NCBI RefSeq assembly: GCF_018687075.1
Contig: NZ_CP061285.1
Coordinates: 62,001 to 126,000, forward strand
Length of the DNA: 64,000 nt
DNA from: Polynucleobacter sp. MWH-UH35A
GTDB lineage: Bacteria; Pseudomonadota; Gammaproteobacteria; Burkholderiales; Burkholderiaceae
Direction: 5' to 3'
Positions 17,678 through 62,592 of this stretch are shown piece after piece (within the stretch, counting starts at the first letter, position 1; each line of letters starts with the position of its first letter). The translations under genes and the position numbers were made by a program. Under the pieces are notes generated by a model, which worked only from the letters and a program-made list of their open reading frames with translations, was not told the origin of the DNA and did no database searches.

Positions 17678-18202
17678 TTAAGCGGAAAGTTCAAGCTGCA
17701 TGATTAAGGTGTTGACTAGTTGATTAACGCTGGGCTTTCCAGTTTCAATCACGTAGTCGGCGATTTCCCGATAAAGCGGATCTCGAACGGCATATAAATT
17801 CTCTAAGATTTTTTTGGCATCACCATTTCTAAGGAGAGGGCGACCTTCACCGCCTTTAGTGCGATGCCACAGCTCTATAGGGTTTGCATGAAGATAAATA
17901 ACTGTGCCATGCTCGCTTAATGCCTGGCGATTCTCTGGCAAAAGCACTGCACCTCCACCAGTTGCCAAAATAATATTTTGCTCAGCAGTGATTTCTCGAA
18001 TGGCTTGAGCTTCACGTTTTCTAAAGCCCTCTTCACCTTCCATTTCGAAAATGACAGGGATTTTTACGCCGCAACGCTCTTCGATAACATGGTCGGCATC
18101 CAGAAATCGACGCCCCAATTTTTTTGCCAAGACTTTACCGACGGTCGACTTTCCGGCGCCCATCAGGCCGATCAGAAAGATATTGTTTGTCGAAGAGTTC
18201 AC
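17678..18202 (-). CDS. aroK: Shikimate kinase
   Basis: Phosphorylates shikimate at O3 using ATP. The 174 aa include the P-loop [12 protein letters not shown], the shikimate-binding region ([10 protein letters not shown]), the LATGGGAVL loop and the lid arginines in GGEGRPLL. The start codon is GTG at 18202, with AAAGG almost adjacent. It lies 12 nt after the interrupted pilQ, and is presumably read from the same promoter, which may explain why the remnant pil locus is still transcribed. Confidence 0.95.
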
Positions 18203-18214
18203 CCTTTGATTTTA

Positions 18215-19336
18215 TTAGGGTTTGTCGAGAACAGTCGGAGTTAAAAAGACAAGCAGCTCAGTTTTATCTTGTAATTTGGACTTATGGCGAAAAAAATGGC
18301 CAATGAAGGGGATATTACCCAATAAGGGGACTTTGACTTCATCCTCACGTTCGGTTGTTTGGAAGATGCCTCCAATGATGGCTGTTCCGCCATTCTCAAC
18401 GGTCACCTCTGAGCTAAGACTTTTTGTGTCTATGGCATACCCTTACTCAGTTTTCATGCCTACAGTGTCTTTATTGATACCCACGAGCATGGATATTTTT
18501 CCATCAGGATGAATTTTTGGGAGAACCTCTAGGCGTAAATTAGCCTTCCGAAATTGCAATTTGCTGCCATTTTGGTTTGAGGTTTGATAGGGGAGCTCAG
18601 TGCCCTGCTCAATTGTGGCTTTCACTTGGTCTCCAGTCATGATGCGAGGATTGGAAAGAATTTTGCCTTGACCATCCGATTCCAACGCCGAAAGCTCTGC
18701 TTGAAGTATGCTGCGTGCGTTCTTGGAGACTAAGGTTGCTGCTATGGTTGCTGGATTAAAGCCACCTAAACCTGCGCCACTGAAATCGATGTTGCCCTCC
18801 GCCTTTTGATCTGGATTGCCCCGTAGACCACTTGCTTGATATCCCAGCTTAACGCCTAACTCTCGCGCAAAGCGTTCATCAGCCTCGACTATGCGAGCTT
18901 CTATCAGAATTTGTCTTGGGCTATAGATGTGATCTCCACCAAAGGGTAGTGCGGCATCCTCGCGGCGGAATTTCTGAAAGGCCTGGATTTCAGCATGCGG
19001 GCCAATCCAATAGATATCGCCATTGCGGACCAGCCTTAATCCTCGACTCGCAAGAATGGAGTGAAGGGCTGTTTGCCATGGAGTGTTTCGCAGATCGATC
19101 GAAACTTGCCCCTGAATTGACTCGCTCAATAAAAAGTTGGTATTTCCTAATTGAGCCATTACTTGCAAAAGATCCTTTACTTCAATATTGGTAAATTGCA
19201 AGCTAATCGGATTCAATAAATGGTTTGATGGCGGTGAATTTCCTATGGCCTTATTGCTAGAAAAAATAATCAATAAGGCAATGTAAATAGGGAGCTGTTT
19301 AATGTAATTTAGGATGCATTTTGCGCAGATCTTCAT
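18215..19336 (-). pseudogene. pilQ: PilQ-like secretin interrupted by an in-frame TAA and lacking the N1 region
   Basis: Outer-membrane secretin of type IV pili or DNA uptake. Reading from ATG 19336: a signal peptide, an STN/N0 domain (ISLQFTNIEVKDLLQVMA, then the end GDIYWIGP), and only about 35 residues later the secretin core (QILIEARIVEADERFARELG). In full-length PilQ roughly 100 residues, including the N1 domain, lie between those two. The N-terminal AMIN domains are also absent. At 18443-18445 a TAA follows VGMKTE, and the same frame continues without shift as GYAIDTKSLSSEVTVENGGT and the intact signature VPLLGNIPFIGHFF to a TAA at 18215. One C-to-T change (CAA to TAA) would explain the stop. 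Without readthrough the product is 297 aa and lacks the membrane-spanning signature. Confidence 0.85.
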
Positions 19337-20025
19337 TGGCTTTTAATGGCTTTCAGAACCAAAAATTTACCTTGAGGGTGCGTGATAGTGGCCTGCTCTT
19401 TCTCGATCGTGCTTAGACGCCAATCTCCTAAAACCTGGGACCCCTTCTCAAAGACAAGATGGTTTTTTCCGTTATGAAAATAAGCTTGCTGAGTAGCCCC
19501 CATCTGGGAGCTTCCAAGGTAACGCCAGCGACGCAGTTCTAGCTCATGAGGGGGCGCCAGAGGCTTACTGGAAGTACGCATTTCGGGCTTTTTCTCCTTT
19601 AATAAGTGAACACTTACTTCTAATTCATCTATTTCCGCATATAGATCATCCTGATCTTGATGAATTTCCTCACGCATTAGAGCGATTTCTTTTTTCAGTT
19701 CAGTGATCTGTTTTTGAGATTCTTCTAAAGTGCCTTGAGAATGATTGTTTAGTGCTTGATAAGCCATAAAAAATGCACCAGCGGCAGCTACTAGGACCCC
19801 AAAAATAGTGATTGGACCTGCATAGGCATGGGCAAAATCTTTGATCTGAATAGGGCTTAATGACTCTGAAAAATGGTTGCCCTTGCTTTGGCTTGGGGGT
19901 CTAGGGGGAGTGCTTTTTTGGGAGGGTGTTCTGCGAATTCCATGGGGGTCGGGAATGGCTGGGTCGTCCCCCAGGTCGCTCAAAATTTCATCAAAGGATT
20001 GGCTGGAGATATGGCGTGCTGGCAT
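19333..20025 (-). CDS. Coiled-coil inner-membrane protein with a PilP/GspC-like C-terminal domain
   Basis: About 230 aa from ATG 20025 (a GTG lies 2 codons earlier). A Pro/Ser-rich cytoplasmic N-terminus is followed by one membrane segment near residues 70-92 (GPITIFGVLVAAAGAFFMAY), then a heptad-rich coiled coil (EESQKQITELKKEIALMREE and onward). The C-terminal 65 residues contain RRWRYLGSS, HLVFEKGSQVLGDWRLSTI and QATITHPQGKFLVL. That pattern resembles the HR domain of PilP and GspC, where 'G..v.gw.l..I....v.l' is typical. It overlaps the secretin start by 4 nt (ATGA) and occupies the place where pilMNOP would be expected. Function is inferred: a condensed alignment-complex protein or a remnant of one. 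Confidence 0.55.
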   Translation of the reverse strand: MPARHISSQSFDEILSDLGDDPAIPDPHGIRRTPSQKSTPPRPPSQSKGNHFSESLSPIQIKDFAHAYAGPITIFGVLVAAAGAFFMAYQALNNHSQGTLEESQKQITELKKEIALMREEIHQDQDDLYAEIDELEVSVHLLKEKKPEMRTSSKPLAPPHELELRRWRYLGSSQMGATQQAYFHNGKNHLVFEKGSQVLGDWRLSTIEKEQATITHPQGKFLVLKAIKSQ

Positions 20026-20152
20026 GCCCACATTCTTGAGTTTTGGGCGCTAAAAATCCATCGGTACAGATTGATGACTGTGTCAGAAATAAAGCTTTCA
20101 CTATCTACAAAATAAGGGTTTTAGAGCTTTTAGGGAAATTGCTTAAGCACCC

Positions 20153-20166: not shown

Positions 20167-22503
20167 ATGGCCTTACCTCCAAAAGACAAGCCGCCGGTGA
20201 ACCAGCGTCCCATTCGTCCATCCGATAGACGTCCTCGGCAGACACGAGTTGAACCTGGCATACCCCGCAAGAATTCAAGCAATCCGCTAATTAAGGCTTT
20301 GTTGATTATTGGCGTGGTCTTTGCATTGGTGATTACCTTGCTGATGGGTTATGCATTCTTGGTGGCAAAACCGAATCTGCCTAAGATCTCTGCGTTAACT
20401 GACTACAACCCGAAAACTCCGTTGCGTATCTATACGGCTGACAAAGTCCTCATAGGGGAGTTTGGTGAGGAGCGCCGCAAGGTCATTCCGTTAAATGAAA
20501 TTCCGCAAAGCATGCGTAATGCTGTTTTAGCTATTGAGGATGATCGTTTCTATTCTCATGGTGGCGTGGACTATGTGGGCATATTGCGGGCTGCGGTAAC
20601 TAATTTGCGTGGACATCTTTCTCAAGGTGCGTCCACCATCACCATGCAAGTGGCGCGTAATTTCTTCCTGAGCAATGAAAAGACCTTTAGTCGAAAAATC
20701 TATGAGGTGCTGCTTGCCTGGGAGATTGAGTCTCAGCTTACTAAAGACAAGATTCTGGAAATTTATATGAATCAGATTTTCTTGGGGCAGCGGGCTTATG
20801 GCTTTTCTAGTGCGGCGCAGATTTACTTCGGCAAGGAGCTAAAAGACATCACAGTTGCCGAGTCAGCGATGCTGGCCGGCCTTCCTAAGGCACCATCGGC
20901 CTATAACCCTGTGAGTAATTTCCGTCGCGCAAAGATTCGTCAAGAGTACATTCTTCAGCGTATGCGCGATCTAGGCTACATCACTCCAGAAGAATATCAA
21001 AAGGCGATGATTGAAGAGCTGCATATTCGTGGTCTTGGTAATGAGTTTGCGGTACGTGCCGACTTCCCGGCGGAAATGGTTCGTCAATTACTCTTTGCTC
21101 AATATGGTGAGGCAATTTATTCACAGGGAATTGATGTTTACACAACAATTCTGAAGGCGGATCAAGACGCCGCTTATAAGGCAGTGCGCAAAGGTATTTT
21201 TGAATACGACTTACGTCATGCCTATCGTGGTCCAGATGGTTTTATTGATCTTCCAGAAGATCCTGTAAAACGCCAGCGTGCGATTGACGAAGCCTTGCTT
21301 GCATATCCACAATTAGACGACTTGCAATCTGGGGTTGTGCTTGATGTGAAACCAAAGGAGATGCAGGTCACGATCTCTACTGGCGACACCATCACTATTA
21401 AAGGTGAGGGCATGAAGTTGGCGGCAGCATCTATAACCGATAGCACTCAACCTAAAAAACGCTTGCGCCCGGGTGCAGTGGTGCGACTTCTGTCGGATGG
21501 TGGAGTTTGGAAGCTGGCCCAATTGCCACAAGTTGAGGCTGCTTTTGTCTCTATGAATCCAGAGACAGGCGCAATTCTTTCTTTGGTAGGCGGATTTGAT
21601 TTCCGTCGCAATCAGTTCAACCACGTGACGCAGGCCTTGCGTCAGCCTGGTTCTTCATTTAAACCATTTATCTACGCAGCCGCCATTGAAAAAGGTTTTA
21701 CACCCAGCACGATGGTGAACGATGCCCCTTTATCGATTGGTAGTATGGAAACAGGCAGTCAAGCCTGGGAGCCAAAAAACTACGATGGTAAATACGACGG
21801 CATGATGCGCTTGCGTAATGCTTTAGCAAAATCGAAGAACTTAGTTTCGGTTCGTATTATTCGCGCTATTGGACCTTCGTATGCACAAGAATATATTCAA
21901 CGTTTTGGCTTTGAGCCAGAAAAGCATCCACCTTATTTAACAATGGCTCTGGGCGCGGGTTCAGTTACACCATTACAGATGGCCTCTGCTTACAGCGTGT
22001 TTGCTAACGGCGGTTATCGCGTAGATCCGTTCTTAATTGACAAGATGGTCGATTCCAAAGGCACTGTGATGTTTGAAGCAAAACCTACGCGTGCTCGAGA
22101 GGATGCGCCACGCGTATTGGATGCACGCACTGCTTTTGTAATGGACAGCATGTTGCAAGAAGTAACAAAGACTGGAACCGCAGCTTCAGCACGCGGTAAG
22201 TTAGGTCGTAGTGATATTGCTGGTAAGACAGGCACAACCAATGATTCTCACGATGCATGGTTTGCTGGCTACAACCCCAAAGTGGTGGCTATCGCCTGGA
22301 TTGGCTTTGACAAGCCAGCAAGCTTGGGCGATCGTGAAACTGGTGGGGGCCTCGCATTGCCAATGTGGATTTCATACATGGGCACTGCACTAAAAGAGAT
22401 TCCACAGGAGGCGCGGGAAGTTCCAAGTGGAGTGACCCAAGTCGATGGCGACTGGTTTATTCCAGACTTCGCTAACAATGGTGGGGTACGCGAACTGCAA
22501 TAG
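20167..22503 (+). CDS. mrcA: Penicillin-binding protein 1A (bifunctional murein synthase)
   Basis: Class A PBP that polymerises lipid II and cross-links peptidoglycan in the periplasm. The 778 aa: a short Pro/Arg-rich cytoplasmic tail, one membrane helix (residues about 40-60), a GT51 domain (EDDRFYSHGGVDYVGILRA, then GASTITMQVARNFFL), an ODP/OB-like insert, and a transpeptidase domain with Ser496-Ser-Phe-Lys499 (SxxK), SKN (AKSKNLVSV) and Lys687-Thr-Gly689 (AGKTGTTND). All catalytic motifs are intact. It is divergent from the pil remnant and followed after 12 nt by a transposase gene. Confidence 0.97.
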   Translation: MALPPKDKPPVNQRPIRPSDRRPRQTRVEPGIPRKNSSNPLIKALLIIGVVFALVITLLMGYAFLVAKPNLPKISALTDYNPKTPLRIYTADKVLIGEFGEERRKVIPLNEIPQSMRNAVLAIEDDRFYSHGGVDYVGILRAAVTNLRGHLSQGASTITMQVARNFFLSNEKTFSRKIYEVLLAWEIESQLTKDKILEIYMNQIFLGQRAYGFSSAAQIYFGKELKDITVAESAMLAGLPKAPSAYNPVSNFRRAKIRQEYILQRMRDLGYITPEEYQKAMIEELHIRGLGNEFAVRADFPAEMVRQLLFAQYGEAIYSQGIDVYTTILKADQDAAYKAVRKGIFEYDLRHAYRGPDGFIDLPEDPVKRQRAIDEALLAYPQLDDLQSGVVLDVKPKEMQVTISTGDTITIKGEGMKLAAASITDSTQPKKRLRPGAVVRLLSDGGVWKLAQLPQVEAAFVSMNPETGAILSLVGGFDFRRNQFNHVTQALRQPGSSFKPFIYAAAIEKGFTPSTMVNDAPLSIGSMETGSQAWEPKNYDGKYDGMMRLRNALAKSKNLVSVRIIRAIGPSYAQEYIQRFGFEPEKHPPYLTMALGAGSVTPLQMASAYSVFANGGYRVDPFLIDKMVDSKGTVMFEAKPTRAREDAPRVLDARTAFVMDSMLQEVTKTGTAASARGKLGRSDIAGKTGTTNDSHDAWFAGYNPKVVAIAWIGFDKPASLGDRETGGGLALPMWISYMGTALKEIPQEAREVPSGVTQVDGDWFIPDFANNGGVRELQ

Positions 22504-48760: not shown

Positions 48761-49663
48761 ATGAATTTCAAAAACTTTCCTACGTTTGTTATTGGTGTGT
48801 GTCTTTCCCAACTTGTTGTTGCAGGCTCACCGACATTGGACAAGATTAAATCCTCATCTACCGTAACGATGGGGGTGCGTGAGTCCTCTATTCCCATGTC
48901 CTATACAACGGGCGATAGCCGCTTTGATGGTTATCACGTTGAAATTTGCCGCATGATTTTGGGTGATATTAAAGATCGATTGAAGCTTGACACACTTCGT
49001 ATTAATTACCAACCTGTTACCTCGCAAAATCGCGTGTCTTTAGTGCAAAACGGTACTGTGGATATTGAGTGCGGGACAACCACCAATAATCTTGCGCGCT
49101 CAAAAGACGTGGCATTTGCCAACACCCTTTACGTTGAACAGGTCCGGATTGCGGTGAAAGCAAATTCTGGTATTAACTCTATTAGTCAACTGGCAGGCAA
49201 GAAAGTGGCAACTACCACTGGTACCACTTCAGTGCAGTTATTGCGTAAACATGAAAAAGCGAATGGCGTTAATTTTGATGAGGTATTTGGTAAAGATCAC
49301 GCTGATAGTTTCCTATTACTAGAGTCTGGCCGGGCAGATGCCTTTGTCATGGACGGCTCTATTTTGGCCGGCAATATTGCGAACTCTAAGAATCCAAAAG
49401 ACTATAAGATTGTTGGAGAGGTTTTGAGTACTGAACCTATTGCGATTATGGTTCGTAAAGACGATCCAGAATTCAAGGCTGCTGTGAATGAGGCGATTGC
49501 CAAGATTGTGAAGAACGGCAATATGCCAAAACTTTGGAATAAGTGGTTTTTGTCGCCTATTCCGCCAAAAAATATTGTTGTCGGTCTTGAGTTATCTCCG
49601 GCCACCAAAAATGCTTGGGCTAACCTAAACGATAAGCCTGCGGAAGATTATCAAAAGAAATAA
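48761..49663 (+). CDS. gltI: Glutamate/aspartate-type ABC transporter substrate-binding protein
   Basis: Periplasmic binding protein of the polar amino-acid family. The 300 aa have an N-terminal signal (FVIGVCLSQLVVAGSPTLD), then SSTVTMGVRESSIPMSY, the YHVEICRMIL segment, and NGTVDIECGTTTNNLARSKDVAF in part, the region that in GltI contacts the amino acid. The length and these motifs best fit glutamate/aspartate binding, but specificity is not proved. The TAA overlaps the next ATG by one base. Confidence 0.88.
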   Translation: MNFKNFPTFVIGVCLSQLVVAGSPTLDKIKSSSTVTMGVRESSIPMSYTTGDSRFDGYHVEICRMILGDIKDRLKLDTLRINYQPVTSQNRVSLVQNGTVDIECGTTTNNLARSKDVAFANTLYVEQVRIAVKANSGINSISQLAGKKVATTTGTTSVQLLRKHEKANGVNFDEVFGKDHADSFLLLESGRADAFVMDGSILAGNIANSKNPKDYKIVGEVLSTEPIAIMVRKDDPEFKAAVNEAIAKIVKNGNMPKLWNKWFLSPIPPKNIVVGLELSPATKNAWANLNDKPAEDYQKK

Positions 49664-50451
49664 TGGCACTTGATCTTGGAGTTTTTTGTAAAAGCACTCT
49701 AGATGGTGAGGTGGTTGAGCATTGTTTTTCGGCTGTATTTGGCTTGAGTCAAAACGCCGATCCAAGTTATTTGGATTGGTTGATGAAAGCATGGGGCTGG
49801 ACCCTGGCTGTTGCGGGCTTAAGTCTAACAATTGCACTGATTCTGGGTGCGGTGATGGGAACCTTGCGGACATTGCCAGAAGAGCGCGCTCTAAATCGCT
49901 GGCTTGTGCGTTTTTCTACTGCCTGGGTTGAGTTGTTTAGAAACATTCCGATTCTGGTTCAGGTCTTTCTTTGGTATCACGTTATTCCTGCATTTGTTCT
50001 GCCTTTGAAAGCGCTTCCCTCGTACTGGTTGGTGAGCATCGCTTTGGGATTTTTTACCTCTGCACGTATTGCTGAGCAGGTGAGGGCAGGGATTCAGGCA
50101 TTGCCCAGTGGGCAGAAAATGGCAGCAACTGCACTGGGGTTGACTACATATCAAAGTTATCGCTATGTCATCTTACCGATGGCTTTGCGCATTGTGATGC
50201 CACCGCTAACTTCAGAGAGTATGAATCTGATCAAGAACTCCTCCGTTGCTTTTGCAGTTTCAGTTCCTGAACTTACATTATTTGCAATGCAGGCTCAGGA
50301 GGAAACTTCACATGGGGTTGAGATTTATTTGGCGGTGACATTGCTGTATGCCTTTTCAGCGTTTGCAGTGAATCGTGCGATGACAATGATCGAAAAAAGA
50401 ATTCGCATCCTAGGGTTTAATGTTGCATCCAACAATGCGGCGGTGCACTAA
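49663..50451 (+). CDS. gltJ: Amino-acid ABC transporter permease, GltJ type
   Basis: Inner-membrane permease of the HisMQ family. The 262 aa have a GltJ-like long N-terminal loop before the first span, FRNIPILVQVFLWYHVIP, and the EAA-type coupling loop RAGIQALPSGQKMAATALGLT. Translation is coupled at both ends by 1-nt overlaps (TAATG). Confidence 0.9.
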   Translation: MALDLGVFCKSTLDGEVVEHCFSAVFGLSQNADPSYLDWLMKAWGWTLAVAGLSLTIALILGAVMGTLRTLPEERALNRWLVRFSTAWVELFRNIPILVQVFLWYHVIPAFVLPLKALPSYWLVSIALGFFTSARIAEQVRAGIQALPSGQKMAATALGLTTYQSYRYVILPMALRIVMPPLTSESMNLIKNSSVAFAVSVPELTLFAMQAQEETSHGVEIYLAVTLLYAFSAFAVNRAMTMIEKRIRILGFNVASNNAAVH

Positions 50452-51119
50452 TGCTTACTTTGGATCTTAGTTTTTATAACTGGGAGCTTTTCACCAATTA
50501 TATTTTGAAGGGCTTGCTCTTTAGTCTGCAGTTAACGGTAGTAGCTACTATCGGTGGGATTGTCTTTGGAACATTCTTGGCTCTGATGCGTCTTTCTGGC
50601 AGATCTTCCTTGGCATATCCAGCTACTTTTTATATCAACACTATGCGTTCTATTCCCTTAGTGATGGTAATTTTGTGGTTCTTCTTGCTAATTCCGATGT
50701 TGATTGGGCGCCCTATAGGGGCGAACCTTTCAGCAACCATTACTTTTATTGCTTTTGAGGCCGCCTTCTTTGCTGAGATTGTGCGCGCAGGAATTCAGTC
50801 GGTACCAAGAGGTCAAGTATTTGCCGCAGAAGCCTTAGGAATGACCTATAGTCAAAACATGCGTTTTATTGTTTTGCCGCAGGCCTTTAGAAATATGATT
50901 CCAGTCTTTATGACGCAAACGATTGTTTTGTTTCAGGATACTTCATTGGTTTATGCAATCGGCGCATATGACTTACTCAAAGGCTTTGAGATTGCAGGGA
51001 AAAATTTTGGACGCCCCATAGAGACCTATATCTTGGCGGCATTTACGTACTTCATAATTTGTTTCTCTCTATCTAAAGAGGTGCGCAAAATTCATGAAAA
51101 AGTTGCGATTATTCATTAA
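50451..51119 (+). CDS. gltK: Amino-acid ABC transporter permease, GltK type
   Basis: Second permease of the importer. The 222 aa have about five membrane segments, TMRSIPLVMVILWFFLLIP, and the coupling loop VRAGIQSVPRGQVFAAEALGMTYSQ in pieces. Starts at ATG 50451, overlapping the gltJ stop by 1 nt. It pairs with GltJ to form the heterodimeric channel. Confidence 0.9.
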   Translation: MLTLDLSFYNWELFTNYILKGLLFSLQLTVVATIGGIVFGTFLALMRLSGRSSLAYPATFYINTMRSIPLVMVILWFFLLIPMLIGRPIGANLSATITFIAFEAAFFAEIVRAGIQSVPRGQVFAAEALGMTYSQNMRFIVLPQAFRNMIPVFMTQTIVLFQDTSLVYAIGAYDLLKGFEIAGKNFGRPIETYILAAFTYFIICFSLSKEVRKIHEKVAIIH

Positions 51120-53089: not shown

Positions 53090-55321
53090 TTATTTGCGCG
53101 TTTGATTAATTAGGAATTTTTCTAATGCTCTGATGGGTTCCAGATCATTAAATAATGCAGCCTTGGATCTCTCAATCTTTTCTTTAAAAGAGTTCAGTAG
53201 GCGTTCATTTTGAATTAACTCTACTACCAAATCAATATAGGCAATGTCAGAGTGGCAAACGAGTTCTTGAAGTCCAATGTGATTGAGGATTGCGCTAGCA
53301 AGCCGACCACGCATTCTGGCACCTTCTATTGTGATAACGGGTAGATCGCATACTAAAGCTTGCATTGCTGTATTAAAGCCCGAAAACCCTATAGTGTCTA
53401 AATATAGATCGGCTTTTTGCATAAGCCCATAAAACTCCTCTTTTTTTAGGAAGGGAATGATGAAAATAAACTGATTAGCATTGAGTTGCTCACGAGCAAA
53501 AGCCGCCTCAAGACGCTCTTTTAAGATGGATGTGAGGCTTTCATCAAAGTTAAAGAGGACAAATTGACACTGACCCAGTCTCTTAGCAATCTCTACAAAT
53601 ACAGCATCATGGTTTGGGTTGTATTTCGATGGCGAACCTGCACACAAAAGTATTGGTAAAGAGGGGTTAAGTCCAAGGCTGGCAAGATCTGGTGCTATAG
53701 CCGCCACTTCCTCTGGTTGAATATGGGTGCCTAAGTTTGGCAAATGAACCAGTAATTCGCTATAAAGATTTTGTGCGTTTTCGGGCTCGAGCAGTTTGGC
53801 TGATAAATAGAAATCTATTGTGGGCAGTCCAGTGGACTCAGGATGTCCCCAGCTCGCCATCTGGATTGGGGCCAAGCGTAGGCAGGCAAGTGCTTTGGTA
53901 GTTGCATCCATTCCGATTTCTGGATAGAGCAATACATCTAGCCTCTGTTTTGCGATAAGGTGTCCCGCGCTTTGGGTAGAGGTGCCGCAATTGACGTAGT
54001 GCGCAGATTTTGATTTTGCCAGTTCCGTTTCGATATCTTCCGTACCGTTGGTATTGAAGAGTTGCACCTCAAATTGATCTGGATCTAGGTGGGTTACCCA
54101 TCCCTTGGTGATGGCATCCCATACTGGATGCCTGCAAAAATACTTGCTTACGATGCCAACTTTGATTATTTGAGAGGATTCCGCTATTGCTGTGGTGTTA
54201 GCAACGCTATTTTGAATGCTCTTTGCATGTTCGATACATATTTTTCCATATTGACTCAGTAGGGAAACGTTGTTTTCATCTTGGTAGGCTAAGTAAAACG
54301 GATGCCTGCCAATGATCTTTTCTAATTTCCCAGCCGCTCCTTTTTCTGGAGCTATGCTTTTCAATATTTTTAGCTGACTTGCAAATGCATTCCTCGAATT
54401 TTGCAATTCTTCTTTTTCTTTATAGACCTTAGGAATTTGAGAAATAACTAATGCAAATTGCGCTTCACTATTTTTTGGATTTAGATCTAGTGATTTGGCT
54501 AAATAGGTTTTTGCTAGCTCAGCATCCCCAGTGTCGTAATAGATTTCACCTAATAAATAGTAAGTTTGAGCATGACTGGGATTGATCTTGAGCGCATGTT
54601 GGTAGCAATCGATGGCTGCGCTGAATTGCTTGGCTTTTTTGAGGCTATTACCAAAATTTAAACATGCCTCTAGGTAGTTATTGTTGATTTGTAGGGCGCG
54701 CTCAAAGCACTCATATGCATCTTGATAAAGATCTAGCTGAGTCAGAGCATTGCCTAGATTGTTATAGGCTACCGCTAGATTGGGATTGGCTGCTAGGGCT
54801 TTTTCAAAAAGAGGAATCGCTTTTTGAGGGCTGCCATCCTCCAGAAAAATGACGCCTTGATTGCTTAATGCTTCAGCATAGTCAGGGCGTAATGAAAGGG
54901 CTTGTTGATAGGCATTAATGGCCTCTGTATTTCTTGCTAAACCCTTTAGTGCATTGCCACGATTATTGTGCGCCTCAGGAATATGAGGGTTGCATTTAAT
55001 TGCAAGGTCAAAACAATGCAATGCTTCTGAAAATTCAAATAGTGCGTTGTAAGTCAGGCCCAAATTACTCAGAGTTTGTGGAGAGTTGGGTGCAACTTCA
55101 TTCGCTCGGTTTAAAAACCGCAAAGCATTTTTGTAATCTTGCTTTTGATATGACCGGATGCCTAAAAGATTCAGAACATCAATATTGTTTTCATCAAGTT
55201 GATGTGCATGCAAGAAAAGAGTATCTGCTTCCTCGGGCTTTCCTTGTTGGAGCAATCTCAAACCATTCTGAAAAATGCGTTGAGACTGCTTTCGTGTATC
55301 TTGGTGCGATTGCTTAGACAA
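53090..55321 (-). CDS. TPR protein with GT41 (OGT/SPINDLY-like) glycosyltransferase domain
   Basis: A 743-aa protein beginning at TTG 55321, 1 nt after the mscL stop, with no good Shine-Dalgarno, so probably coupled. Residues about 14-290 hold some eight tetratricopeptide repeats (for example AHNNRGNALKGLARNTEAIN). The C-terminal half matches GT41: VGIVSKYFCRHPVWDAI supplies the His-Pro near the active site, ASWGHPESTGLPTIDFYLS the acceptor-side loop, AGSPSKYNPNHD the sugar-nucleotide-binding lysine, and DTIGFSGFNTAMQAL the donor region. Such enzymes transfer sugars to protein Ser/Thr or Asn; donor and target are unknown. The 11-nt gap to the protease suggests one transcript. Confidence 0.82.
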   Translation of the reverse strand: MSKQSHQDTRKQSQRIFQNGLRLLQQGKPEEADTLFLHAHQLDENNIDVLNLLGIRSYQKQDYKNALRFLNRANEVAPNSPQTLSNLGLTYNALFEFSEALHCFDLAIKCNPHIPEAHNNRGNALKGLARNTEAINAYQQALSLRPDYAEALSNQGVIFLEDGSPQKAIPLFEKALAANPNLAVAYNNLGNALTQLDLYQDAYECFERALQINNNYLEACLNFGNSLKKAKQFSAAIDCYQHALKINPSHAQTYYLLGEIYYDTGDAELAKTYLAKSLDLNPKNSEAQFALVISQIPKVYKEKEELQNSRNAFASQLKILKSIAPEKGAAGKLEKIIGRHPFYLAYQDENNVSLLSQYGKICIEHAKSIQNSVANTTAIAESSQIIKVGIVSKYFCRHPVWDAITKGWVTHLDPDQFEVQLFNTNGTEDIETELAKSKSAHYVNCGTSTQSAGHLIAKQRLDVLLYPEIGMDATTKALACLRLAPIQMASWGHPESTGLPTIDFYLSAKLLEPENAQNLYSELLVHLPNLGTHIQPEEVAAIAPDLASLGLNPSLPILLCAGSPSKYNPNHDAVFVEIAKRLGQCQFVLFNFDESLTSILKERLEAAFAREQLNANQFIFIIPFLKKEEFYGLMQKADLYLDTIGFSGFNTAMQALVCDLPVITIEGARMRGRLASAILNHIGLQELVCHSDIAYIDLVVELIQNERLLNSFKEKIERSKAALFNDLEPIRALEKFLINQTRK

Positions 55322-60023: not shown

Positions 60024-61895
60024 ATGCATGCGCTAATTAATAATTTGATGACCCTGGCTGTTGGACATCTCCAAAAAGGGGACTTGGCTAGCGCGGAGAA
60101 ATTATTAAAGCAGTCGCTGACTGTGGCCCCAAAAAATTCAGAGGCATTACGGCTGCTAGGCGTTACTTTTGCATTTAAAAAAGATTTGCAAGAGGCGCTA
60201 AAAGCGCTGGATAAGGCAATCAAAGTCGATCCAAACAATTGGTTGGCCCACAGTAATCGCGGCAACGTTCTGAAGGATCTCAATCAATTCGATGCAGCAT
60301 TAAAAAGCTATGACCGGACTATTGCTCTGCAACCAAATTATGCAGAGGCCTATAACAACAAAGGTAATCTTTACCAAGATCTCAAGAGATATGAAGACGC
60401 AGTAAAGAGTTATGATCAGGCAATTGCTTTGCAACCAAATTATGCAGATGCTTATAGCAATGCGGGCAATGCTCTTAATAAATTAAATTTACTTGATTTA
60501 TCTTTAAATGCTCATGAAAAAGCAATGCAATTGGGCGGCGAAAATGTGGCTGCTTATATAAGCTGCAAGATGCAGTTGTGTGATTGGGGCGGCATTCAGG
60601 GGCATCTAGAAAAAATTCAGCGTGGCGATATTGCTCGTAAGGATTTGTTTTATCCTTTTCATATTCTATCTATATGTAACTCGCCTCAGGTTATTAAAGA
60701 AGTCACCCAAAGCTATATGGCTTTACATTACCCTGACAAAACGGATTTATGGGAATTTGATAAGACCAAACAAAATAAAAAAATTCGCCTTGGATACTTC
60801 TCTCCTGATTTCAGAAATCATGCCGTCTCATTTTTGATTGCTGGCTTGATTGAGGCACATGATAAGAATAAATTTGAGTTAATAGCGTTTTCAATGGGAT
60901 CTGATGCTTCTGATGAAATGCGCGAGCGCCTCAAAGCTAGTTTTGATCAATTTATAGATATTTCCTCTAAAAGCGATTTAGAGGTTGCAAAGTTAGCAAG
61001 AGAAATGCAAATTGATATTGCTATTGATTTAGCGGGAATCACCCAAAACGCACGACCAAGCATTTTTGCTTACCGCACAGCTCCAATTCAGATGGGCTAT
61101 CTAGGTTACCTGGGTACCATGGCTGCTCCATATTATGACTACATCATTGCCGATGAGGTCATTATCCCCAATGAATATAGAAATGCCTATTCAGAAAAGA
61201 TCATATACCTACCAAGCTACCAGGCAAACGATCCTAAACGTGAGATTTCAAGTCGCGTATTTACAAGAGAAGAGTTTGGTATTTCTGAGGCGTCATTCGT
61301 TTACTGTTGCTTTAACAATAATTACAAATTTACCCCTTCAATTTTGGATAGTTGGTCAAAAATTCTGAAGAGTGTAGATAAGGGCGTAATGCTTCTTCAT
61401 GCCGAGAGCGATACGGTTAAAAGGAATTTATTGGCTGAATTTAATTCTCGTGGAATAGAGTCTTCTCGAATCTTTTTTGCTGAGCGATTGCCCCGTGCGG
61501 AATATCTATCTCGTTATCGTATAGCTGATTTATTTTTGGATACATCCCCCTACAATGCTGGTACAACAGCTAGTGACGCTCTTTGGGCTGGTCTGCCAGC
61601 GCTTACTTTCCTCGGAAATACATTTTCAGCAAGAATGGGCGGTAGCCTTTTGAAGTCTGTTGGACTGCCTGAGATGATTTGTGATTCGCAGAAAGCTTAT
61701 GAAGATTTAGCGATTATGCTTGGTCTAAATCCATCAAGGTGTGCCAACGTTAAGGAAAAGTTAGCCGCTAACCGTTTGTGCACACCTCTTTTTGATATCA
61801 AGACATTTGCTGCAAACTTAGAAAATGGATTAAGCCAGGCGCATGAGAAGTTTTTGAATGGCATGCTCCCAGATCACATAATCATCAACCCATAA
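60024..61895 (+). CDS. TPR protein with GT41 (SPINDLY/OGT-like) glycosyltransferase domain
   Basis: A 623-aa protein. Residues about 5-180 hold tetratricopeptide repeats, two of which are close copies (LQPNYAEAYNNKGN and LQPNYADAYSNAGN). From about residue 253 the GT41 domain follows: IRLGYFSPDFRNHAVSFL (active-site His), LAGITQNARPSIFAYRTAPI, QMGYLGYLGTMAAPYYDYI, CCFNNNYKFTPSILDSW with the lysine equivalent to the UDP-binding lysine of OGT, and DTSPYNAGTTASDALWAGLP. All expected motifs are intact. The start has no clear Shine-Dalgarno. It opens an AT-richer cluster after tRNA-Thr. Protein O-glycosylation is the family role; the substrate is unknown. Confidence 0.88.
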   Translation: MHALINNLMTLAVGHLQKGDLASAEKLLKQSLTVAPKNSEALRLLGVTFAFKKDLQEALKALDKAIKVDPNNWLAHSNRGNVLKDLNQFDAALKSYDRTIALQPNYAEAYNNKGNLYQDLKRYEDAVKSYDQAIALQPNYADAYSNAGNALNKLNLLDLSLNAHEKAMQLGGENVAAYISCKMQLCDWGGIQGHLEKIQRGDIARKDLFYPFHILSICNSPQVIKEVTQSYMALHYPDKTDLWEFDKTKQNKKIRLGYFSPDFRNHAVSFLIAGLIEAHDKNKFELIAFSMGSDASDEMRERLKASFDQFIDISSKSDLEVAKLAREMQIDIAIDLAGITQNARPSIFAYRTAPIQMGYLGYLGTMAAPYYDYIIADEVIIPNEYRNAYSEKIIYLPSYQANDPKREISSRVFTREEFGISEASFVYCCFNNNYKFTPSILDSWSKILKSVDKGVMLLHAESDTVKRNLLAEFNSRGIESSRIFFAERLPRAEYLSRYRIADLFLDTSPYNAGTTASDALWAGLPALTFLGNTFSARMGGSLLKSVGLPEMICDSQKAYEDLAIMLGLNPSRCANVKEKLAANRLCTPLFDIKTFAANLENGLSQAHEKFLNGMLPDHIIINP

Positions 61896-61911
61896 CAAAA
61901 TAGGTGATGCT

Positions 61912-62592
61912 ATAAAAGTTCATTTTATCGTAGCTACAAGAGTTAGCTTAGAAGATTTTTATTTAAAGACAGCTACAGGGAAATCTTTAGCCCTATATAA
62001 ATCCTCCGATTTAGTGGTGCATGTATACCCAGAAAATAAAGCGAGTTTATCTGCAATTTATAACTCGGCAATTGAGCGCTTTGTTAGCGAATCATGCATT
62101 CTCGTTTTTGCTCATGATGACTTGCTCATAACTGATTTTTATTGGATGCATACTGTTTTCAATGGCTTGCAACACTTTGGGGTCGTGGGATGTGCTGGGA
62201 ATGTTAGTAGGGCACCTTTTCAGCCGGCTTGGGCTTTTAAAAATTTGGATTTTGAATGGGATGCCCCACAAAATTTAAGCGGCATTGTTGGCCATGGAAG
62301 ACAATTTCCCCCGGAAAATTTGGCTGTGTTCGGACCACCATTTCGACAAGTTAAATTGTTGGATGGGCTCTTTCTAGCGGCTTTTAGTGACACCCTAAAA
62401 AAGTCAAACCTTCGCTTTGATGAGCGATTTGATTTTCACTTCTATGATATGGATTTTTGTCGTCAGGCGGAGTTTCTTGGGGTGAGTATGGGTACGATAC
62501 CGCTATCTTTAGTCCATGAGAGTGGGGGTAGCTATGCATCCGAATCGTGGACCAATGCGTACGGAAAATATATGGAGAAATGGACTTCGTAG
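61912..62592 (+). CDS. Small glycosyltransferase-like protein, apparent ATA start
   Basis: The coherent frame begins 16 nt after the preceding stop: ATA 61912 gives IKVHFIVATRVSLEDFYLKT, with TAGGTG as a Shine-Dalgarno 5 nt before. The first GTG (62014) would remove 34 residues of the strand-turn-helix start. In total 226 aa. Motifs suggest a GT2-like glycosyltransferase: ILVFAHDDLLITDFYW (Asp-Asp in DxD-like position), VVGCAGN, LLDGLFLAAFS, RFDERFDFHFYDMDFCRQAE and VHESGGSY near the C-terminus. It sits between two TPR-GT41 genes and probably works on the same glycan or protein. An upstream ATG lost by mutation is an alternative reading. Confidence 0.7.
   Translation: MKVHFIVATRVSLEDFYLKTATGKSLALYKSSDLVVHVYPENKASLSAIYNSAIERFVSESCILVFAHDDLLITDFYWMHTVFNGLQHFGVVGCAGNVSRAPFQPAWAFKNLDFEWDAPQNLSGIVGHGRQFPPENLAVFGPPFRQVKLLDGLFLAAFSDTLKKSNLRFDERFDFHFYDMDFCRQAEFLGVSMGTIPLSLVHESGGSYASESWTNAYGKYMEKWTS

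Follow-up and report, generated by a model that had tools for sequence, protein, structure and literature searches.

According to the parts of PMC12114550 (2025) available to us, N0 and N3 have been observed in every secretin to date. N3, described as the base ring of the secretin, is equated with Secretin_N in the excerpted text of PMC7545093, where this KH-like N1/N3 domain (Secretin_N, PF03958) is present in most secretins of type IVa pili (T4aP), and the AMIN domain is optional, being absent from 27 of 197 sequences; as far as the sources at hand go, the N3 ring is also reported to be necessary for assembly of the GspD pore. RcpA of the Tad system of Pseudomonas aeruginosa, as described in the accessible portion of PMC10499894, consists of one N-terminal domain, a 20-residue linker and the secretin domain; other RcpA homologues have N3 at that place, and the P. 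aeruginosa protein is a precedent for a secretin without it. Mitochondrial GspD is likewise a secretin without a fused N-terminal array, with N0 absent and Secretin_N-like domains carried on separate proteins (PMC8134430, partial text). No paper turned up in a literature search for the phrase 'lacks the N1' applied to a secretin, and the parts of the literature retrieved contained nothing specific on competence, transformation or type IV pili in Polynucleobacter, nor a demonstration of DNA uptake.

The locus analyzed here lies in a 64,000-nucleotide stretch (the window) of the genome of Polynucleobacter sp. MWH-UH35A, a single contig of 1.96 Mb in which a Secretin search gives one match, the gene listed in Table 1. 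The first-pass annotation had read this gene as a PilQ-like frame interrupted by an in-frame TAA, and its coordinates, strand and frame were correct: in the assembly sequence, the frame reopens after the TAA and runs through the secretin signature to a terminal stop at 18215-18217, and both pieces belong to the Secretin family. Residues 1-297 match STN and positions 1-86 of the Secretin profile, and the 63-residue piece after the stop matches positions 110-168; both exceed the cut-off of PF00263 (Secretin domain), which the whole frame matches at E 1.6e-45 with one stop. With the PilQ model TIGR02515, the two pieces score 203.2 and 80.7 bits, each below the cut-off of 284.35, whereas intact relatives are PilQ by this NCBIfam cut-off in 3/3 cases (294.6-308.9 bits). 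Between the secretin and the divergent PBP1A-family gene there is a single gene, orf232.

Table 1. Positions of the secretin locus in the window and of further genes outside it
Feature	Position	Strand	Basis or remark
PilQ-type secretin gene	18215..19336	-	373 codons, single in-frame stop; profile matches and orthologue searches
Premature TAA, codon 298 of 373	18443..18445	-	identical sense residue in 82/82 intact genus rows
N0 (STN) domain, residues 44-113	18998..19207	-	PF07660 above cut-off, PF21305 below; alignment to solved PilQ N0
24-residue linker, residues 114-137, replacing the KH-like domain	18926..18997	-	equal spacing in 83/83 genus rows
Secretin core (barrel), residues 138-373, interrupted at residue 298	18218..18925	-	profiles and PilQ structure alignment
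63-codon open piece downstream of the stop	18215..18406	-	GTG start; carries the C-terminal secretin signature
orf232	19333..20031	-	4-base overlap with the secretin; C-terminal PilP-like domain, 41-row alignment
aroK, downstream neighbor of the secretin	17678..18202	-	family profile matches
PBP1A-family penicillin-binding protein gene, divergent neighbor	20167..22503	+	family profile matches
Minor pilin with premature TAA, frame otherwise intact	G000:C1:272588-273112 (by protein match); L200:3068-3484		outside the window
ATPase / PilC / prepilin peptidase region	L126:6682-9298		outside the window

The N0 domain, whose boundaries we set ourselves, and the core align with PilQ of type IVa pili, represented by the solved chains 9sh1 (E 2.4e-69), 4av2 and 6w6m, of which we take 9sh1 and 4av2 to come from Neisseria. 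The gene also adjoins aroK and lies downstream of a PilP-like gene, as in PilQ; a shikimate-kinase frame follows the secretin in the loci L239, L241 and L242 of other genera as well. Unlike PilQ, the MWH-UH35A secretin has neither an AMIN match nor a KH-like domain, and PilM and PilN find no match in its genome; the neighborhood holds the PilP-like gene only, rather than a pilMNOPQ cluster. The resemblance to HofQ, a DNA-uptake secretin, extends to a weak match of N0 to the HofQ chain 2y3m (E 0.00099) and to HofQ-model scores of 192.9-201.1 bits in the intact relatives, far below the cut-off of 554, and the Polynucleobacter secretin differs in having no middle domain. Its layout resembles that of P. 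aeruginosa RcpA, in which, as the partial text of PMC10499894 has it, the N-domain is VirB9-like rather than N0 and the pilus system is another one.

The short distance between N0 and core had been noticed in the first-pass annotation, which called the absent domain N1, that is, the KH-like domain termed N3 or Secretin_N in recent papers. The distance is indeed short; the figure of about 35 residues did not hold, since profiles built for N0 and core place them exactly 24 residues apart, and alignment to the solved PilQ 9sh1 sets 17 residues here against 85 there. This 24-residue spacing recurs in 83/83 genus rows, MWH-UH35A included (rows drawn from 89 of 186 genomes, with 6 broken copies excluded), and the linker carries a conserved motif (alignments A1 and A2). 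Pfam gives STN plus Secretin in 40/40 named relatives; Secretin_N (PF03958) is not among the families that these 40 match with an E of 1 or less (most matches above 0.1 are removed by the HMMER filters), and AMIN has no match in them either. Because the short spacing is common to all genus rows examined, it is not evidence of decay. The suggestion that two separate lesions point to real decay is therefore wrong as an argument: the genus inherited the loss of the domain from its ancestor and keeps the gene under strong purifying selection, and the genus comparison rules out the two-lesion reading, leaving one recent nonsense mutation. The other suggestion in the first-pass annotation, a stripped-down secretin that recently took such a mutation, is borne out by the genus rows and by a nearly pristine frame.

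The loss extends beyond the genus. Of 39 family loci examined outside Polynucleobacter, 37 were measurable: 34 have 82-127 residues between N0 and core, and three (G206, G225 and G224) have 24-30. The congeners of G224, namely G205, G256, G238 and G247, have 82-84. The genes upstream of the secretin in G206 and G224 match PilP at E 3e-5 and 3e-4, both below the curated cut-off, which the congener G205 exceeds; G224 also has a PilN match. By locus, the secretins without a domain between N0 and core are L239, L240 and L242, of two other genera; L241, a congener in one of them, retains it. In the core tree, the loci of the genera g21 and g22 form one clade (support 100), in which secretins with and without the domain are mixed and which is separate from Polynucleobacter. 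This implies two or more losses of the domain, or a loss and a later regain. The genus-wide fusion of N0 to the barrel, together with one or more additional independent losses of the middle domain, is the wider novelty of this locus.

The age of the stop was assessed in the 89 of 186 Polynucleobacter genomes examined at the secretin locus (90 loci, one duplicate dropped). At the stop column, all 82 intact genus orthologues share one residue, always encoded by a sense codon; the inactivating change sits on a conserved position of the secretin, as in a pseudogene, and the codons of the relatives are consistent with the single-base origin proposed in the first-pass annotation. Besides the stop, the MWH-UH35A secretin is off consensus at 3 of 237 columns (those conserved in at least 75/82 rows). 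In a codon model of 22 genomes, omega is 0.075 for the background versus 0.119 for the MWH-UH35A branch (2dlnL 3.4), and 0.012 versus 0.099 for the post-stop codons (2dlnL 5.9, few changes). A control branch, G041, gives 2dlnL 4.3 in the opposite direction, and aroK, orf232 and part of aroB give 0.05, 0.09 and 1.8 on the MWH-UH35A branch. These omega signals are weak, and relaxation is slight, if there is any; purifying selection on the intact gene of the genus is strong, at a background omega of about 0.075, despite its absent middle domain. The stop in the assembly is one recent nonsense mutation. The secretin is broken in seven of the 89 genomes (MWH-UH35A, G031, G032, G033, G035, G037 and G051), and two more rows, whose stops at residues 3 and 13 lie in the signal region, resemble start shifts.

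A second premature stop, found outside the window in a minor pilin gene, lends support to the 'real decay' half of the two-lesion claim. The broken gene is the fourth of a pilin cluster, among whose other genes only the first matches the N_methyl model; in the sister species G063 the corresponding frame is open and aligns gap-free around and past the stop position. The minor pilin is unbroken in 46/54 chosen genomes: in 43/43 with intact secretin and orf232, versus broken or absent in 8/11 with a broken or missing machine (Fisher 1.6e-7, kinship ignored), these counts being phylogenetically non-independent and several of the broken genomes small; G032, G036 and G037 keep an unbroken pilin despite a broken or missing machine. 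The minor pilin probably belongs to the machine of the secretin. The local sequence of the two premature stops is the same at 12 of 15 bases (window 18430-18455 against the L200 pilin stop, counted by eye).

To place these two breaks against the rest of the genome, sister frames of 100 aa or more were matched to 400 kb of MWH-UH35A plus the window, and a stop counted only if it fell at 12% to 90% of the length. The queries numbered 444, of which 73 could not be compared; the remaining 371 include the secretin, orf232 and comEC. Intact genes number 364, and the seven flagged are the secretin, five judged spurious and one placed in neither class. Of five 400-kb flags inspected, four look like shadow frames or start extensions, and the fifth, in a signal-peptide region (G063 113858-114895 of the joined stretch), is the one placed in neither class; the seventh flag, where the shift falls within the opening 49 residues of a long gene, was put down to a start extension on the comparison alone. 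In reverse, four MWH-UH35A frames were raw-flagged against the 400 kb of the sister and none against 77 kb. In the 20-kb ATPase region, a sister frame is stopped at residue 43 of 515, where the frame of MWH-UH35A itself begins later, and a sister frame of 99 aa meets three stops in MWH-UH35A. Window segments 48761-51119, 53090-55321 and 60024-62592, whose frames find no match or only a weak one in the syntenic 77 kb of the sister, resemble a variable island. General genome decay was not seen in the compared parts, the secretin being the sole convincing break there. Machine genes are broken in 2/11 cases versus 0/368 others (p 0.0008, or 0.002 if the signal-peptide-region gene is counted as broken); once the secretin is conditioned on as the starting observation, the figure is 1/10 (p 0.03, or 0.05 with the same gene counted).

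The alternative that survives best, an error of sequencing or assembly in an intact gene, is nonetheless improbable. One substitution would suffice for it, the rest of the frame is nearly pristine, and the stop is known from the assembly alone; against this, there is no long homopolymer at the TAA, and a second premature stop occurs in the pilin gene while the secretin is the only convincing break among 371 comparable genes. Nor is there a systematic C-to-T change in the five-base context that the two stops share (52/450 sites versus 9321/86786 overall), and the same lack of excess disposes of a motif-specific error or hypermutation, which the similar context of both stops had brought to mind. 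Two breaks in one machine and no context bias make an error unlikely. Still less probable is that the TAA is read through, by a suppressor tRNA or by programmed readthrough, so that full-length secretin is made. Both stops do lie in otherwise intact frames with similar local sequence, but among the 68 non-overlapping open frames of 100 aa or more in the window 52 end in TAA, none of the 33 tRNA genes typed out of 39 has a TTA anticodon, the single tRNA-Gln among them being TTG, and no stop occurs at this column in any of the 82 intact relatives. Old decay, with the missing domain and the stop as lesions of a long-dead gene, has both features in its favor as they occur in the sequence, and is refuted by the genus comparison, given a domain absent from 83/83 rows and a genus gene under strong purifying selection, to the point of being hardly credible. 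Just as implausible is a split gene whose pieces are made separately, with a restart at GTG 18406, and then assemble: the open frame and C-terminal signature after the stop would fit it, but the cut falls in a barrel segment of high conservation, and 0/82 intact relatives are split there.

We therefore return to a loss that was recent and specific to one pathway, that of a miniature type IV filament machine probably for DNA uptake, in a genome without other convincing decay in the parts compared; this we hold to be the likely explanation of this locus with good, though not full, confidence. The secretin would be the outer-membrane pore of this machine, whose function is most likely natural transformation. 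A single-base nonsense mutation in MWH-UH35A would recently have removed barrel residues 298-373, a loss that should block a closed pore and thus, presumably, pore assembly in this strain; the second stop would truncate the minor pilin, and the machine would have been lost very recently. The other genes are consistent with a small apparatus. Its PilB-type ATPase (359 aa) matches only the later part of PilB models and is the sole one above cut-off in MWH-UH35A, PilC has 348 aa, and the prepilin peptidase (166 aa) has a Peptidase_A24 match only. All three are open, as are comEC, a 174-aa pilin and the remaining three genes of the pilin cluster. Elsewhere, PilN is found in 3/10 genomes searched (G069, G205 and G224), and PilM is clear in G069 and G031, with matches only near E 1e-3 to 1e-4 elsewhere among the 12 genomes searched; beside the miniature system, G069 carries, at about 1.21-1.24 Mb of C1, another type IV pilus system that is fuller and has PilM- and PilN-like frames.

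The link to DNA uptake comes from comEC, which is unbroken in 8/8 genomes with a confirmed intact machine versus 3/12 with a broken or missing one (Fisher 0.0013, kinship ignored), after 4 of 24 genomes were set aside in which the secretin frame was undisplayed or on contig ends (G042, G123 and G143, with comEC open, and G135, with comEC in pieces). MWH-UH35A is one of the three genomes with a broken machine that keep an open comEC, as expected under a recent loss. This co-occurrence favors a role of the machine in DNA uptake, as support rather than proof.

A relative of orf232 adjoins the secretin in 89/89 genomes examined and is broken in several. The orf232 protein combines a conserved N-terminal motif with a hydrophobic segment, a stretch that looks like a coiled coil on inspection and a C-terminal PilP-like domain. 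Its profile matches PilP of related genera with a probability of 66% (P 5.5e-5), versus 0.2% for a control profile, and we regard this as a putative PilP-like match of moderate strength; no curated family model scored above cut-off, and no solved structure was found by sequence at E below 0.009, the top rows being coiled-coil-like. In locus L104 (G132), an in-frame stop lies at residue 57 of orf232, in a variable part, with the secretin intact; it may be an artefact or an early lesion. In the genus secretin, which has neither the AMIN nor the KH-like (N1/N3) domains, N0 is consequently joined to the barrel by the conserved 24-residue linker. We propose that the PilP-like C-terminus of orf232 holds N0, and that orf232, through its membrane helix and its coiled coil, may span the periplasm and substitute for PilM/N/O/P. 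The proposal that a PilP-like domain sits on N0 is based on the GspC-GspD and PilP-PilQ contacts described in the available part of PMC10499894, and the contact between orf232 and N0 is a prediction by analogy. Taken together, this describes a genus-wide machine in which a PilP-like coiled-coil protein docks on an N0 fused to the barrel, with one ATPase and with no N3 ring, PilM or PilN, and in which N3 would be dispensable, having been lost at least two times in the family; we give this larger picture even chances of being right.

The small genomes with a broken machine belong, we presume, to symbionts. In the excerpted text of PMC5018217, P. necessarius is an obligate ciliate symbiont with a genome of about 1.6 Mbp and many pseudogenes, and the locus broken in MWH-UH35A is also broken in several small genomes. 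MWH-UH35A departs from such endosymbionts in that each of its broken genes carries a single stop and the compared parts show no convincing general decay. MWH-UH35A would accordingly capture a machine at the onset of its loss, in a genome otherwise free of convincing decay as far as compared. The break in the gene is in itself a recent and ordinary event, and the intact version in the relatives matters more: a PilQ-type secretin kept under strong selection without its base-ring domain would be a natural minimal construct for studying the role of N3.
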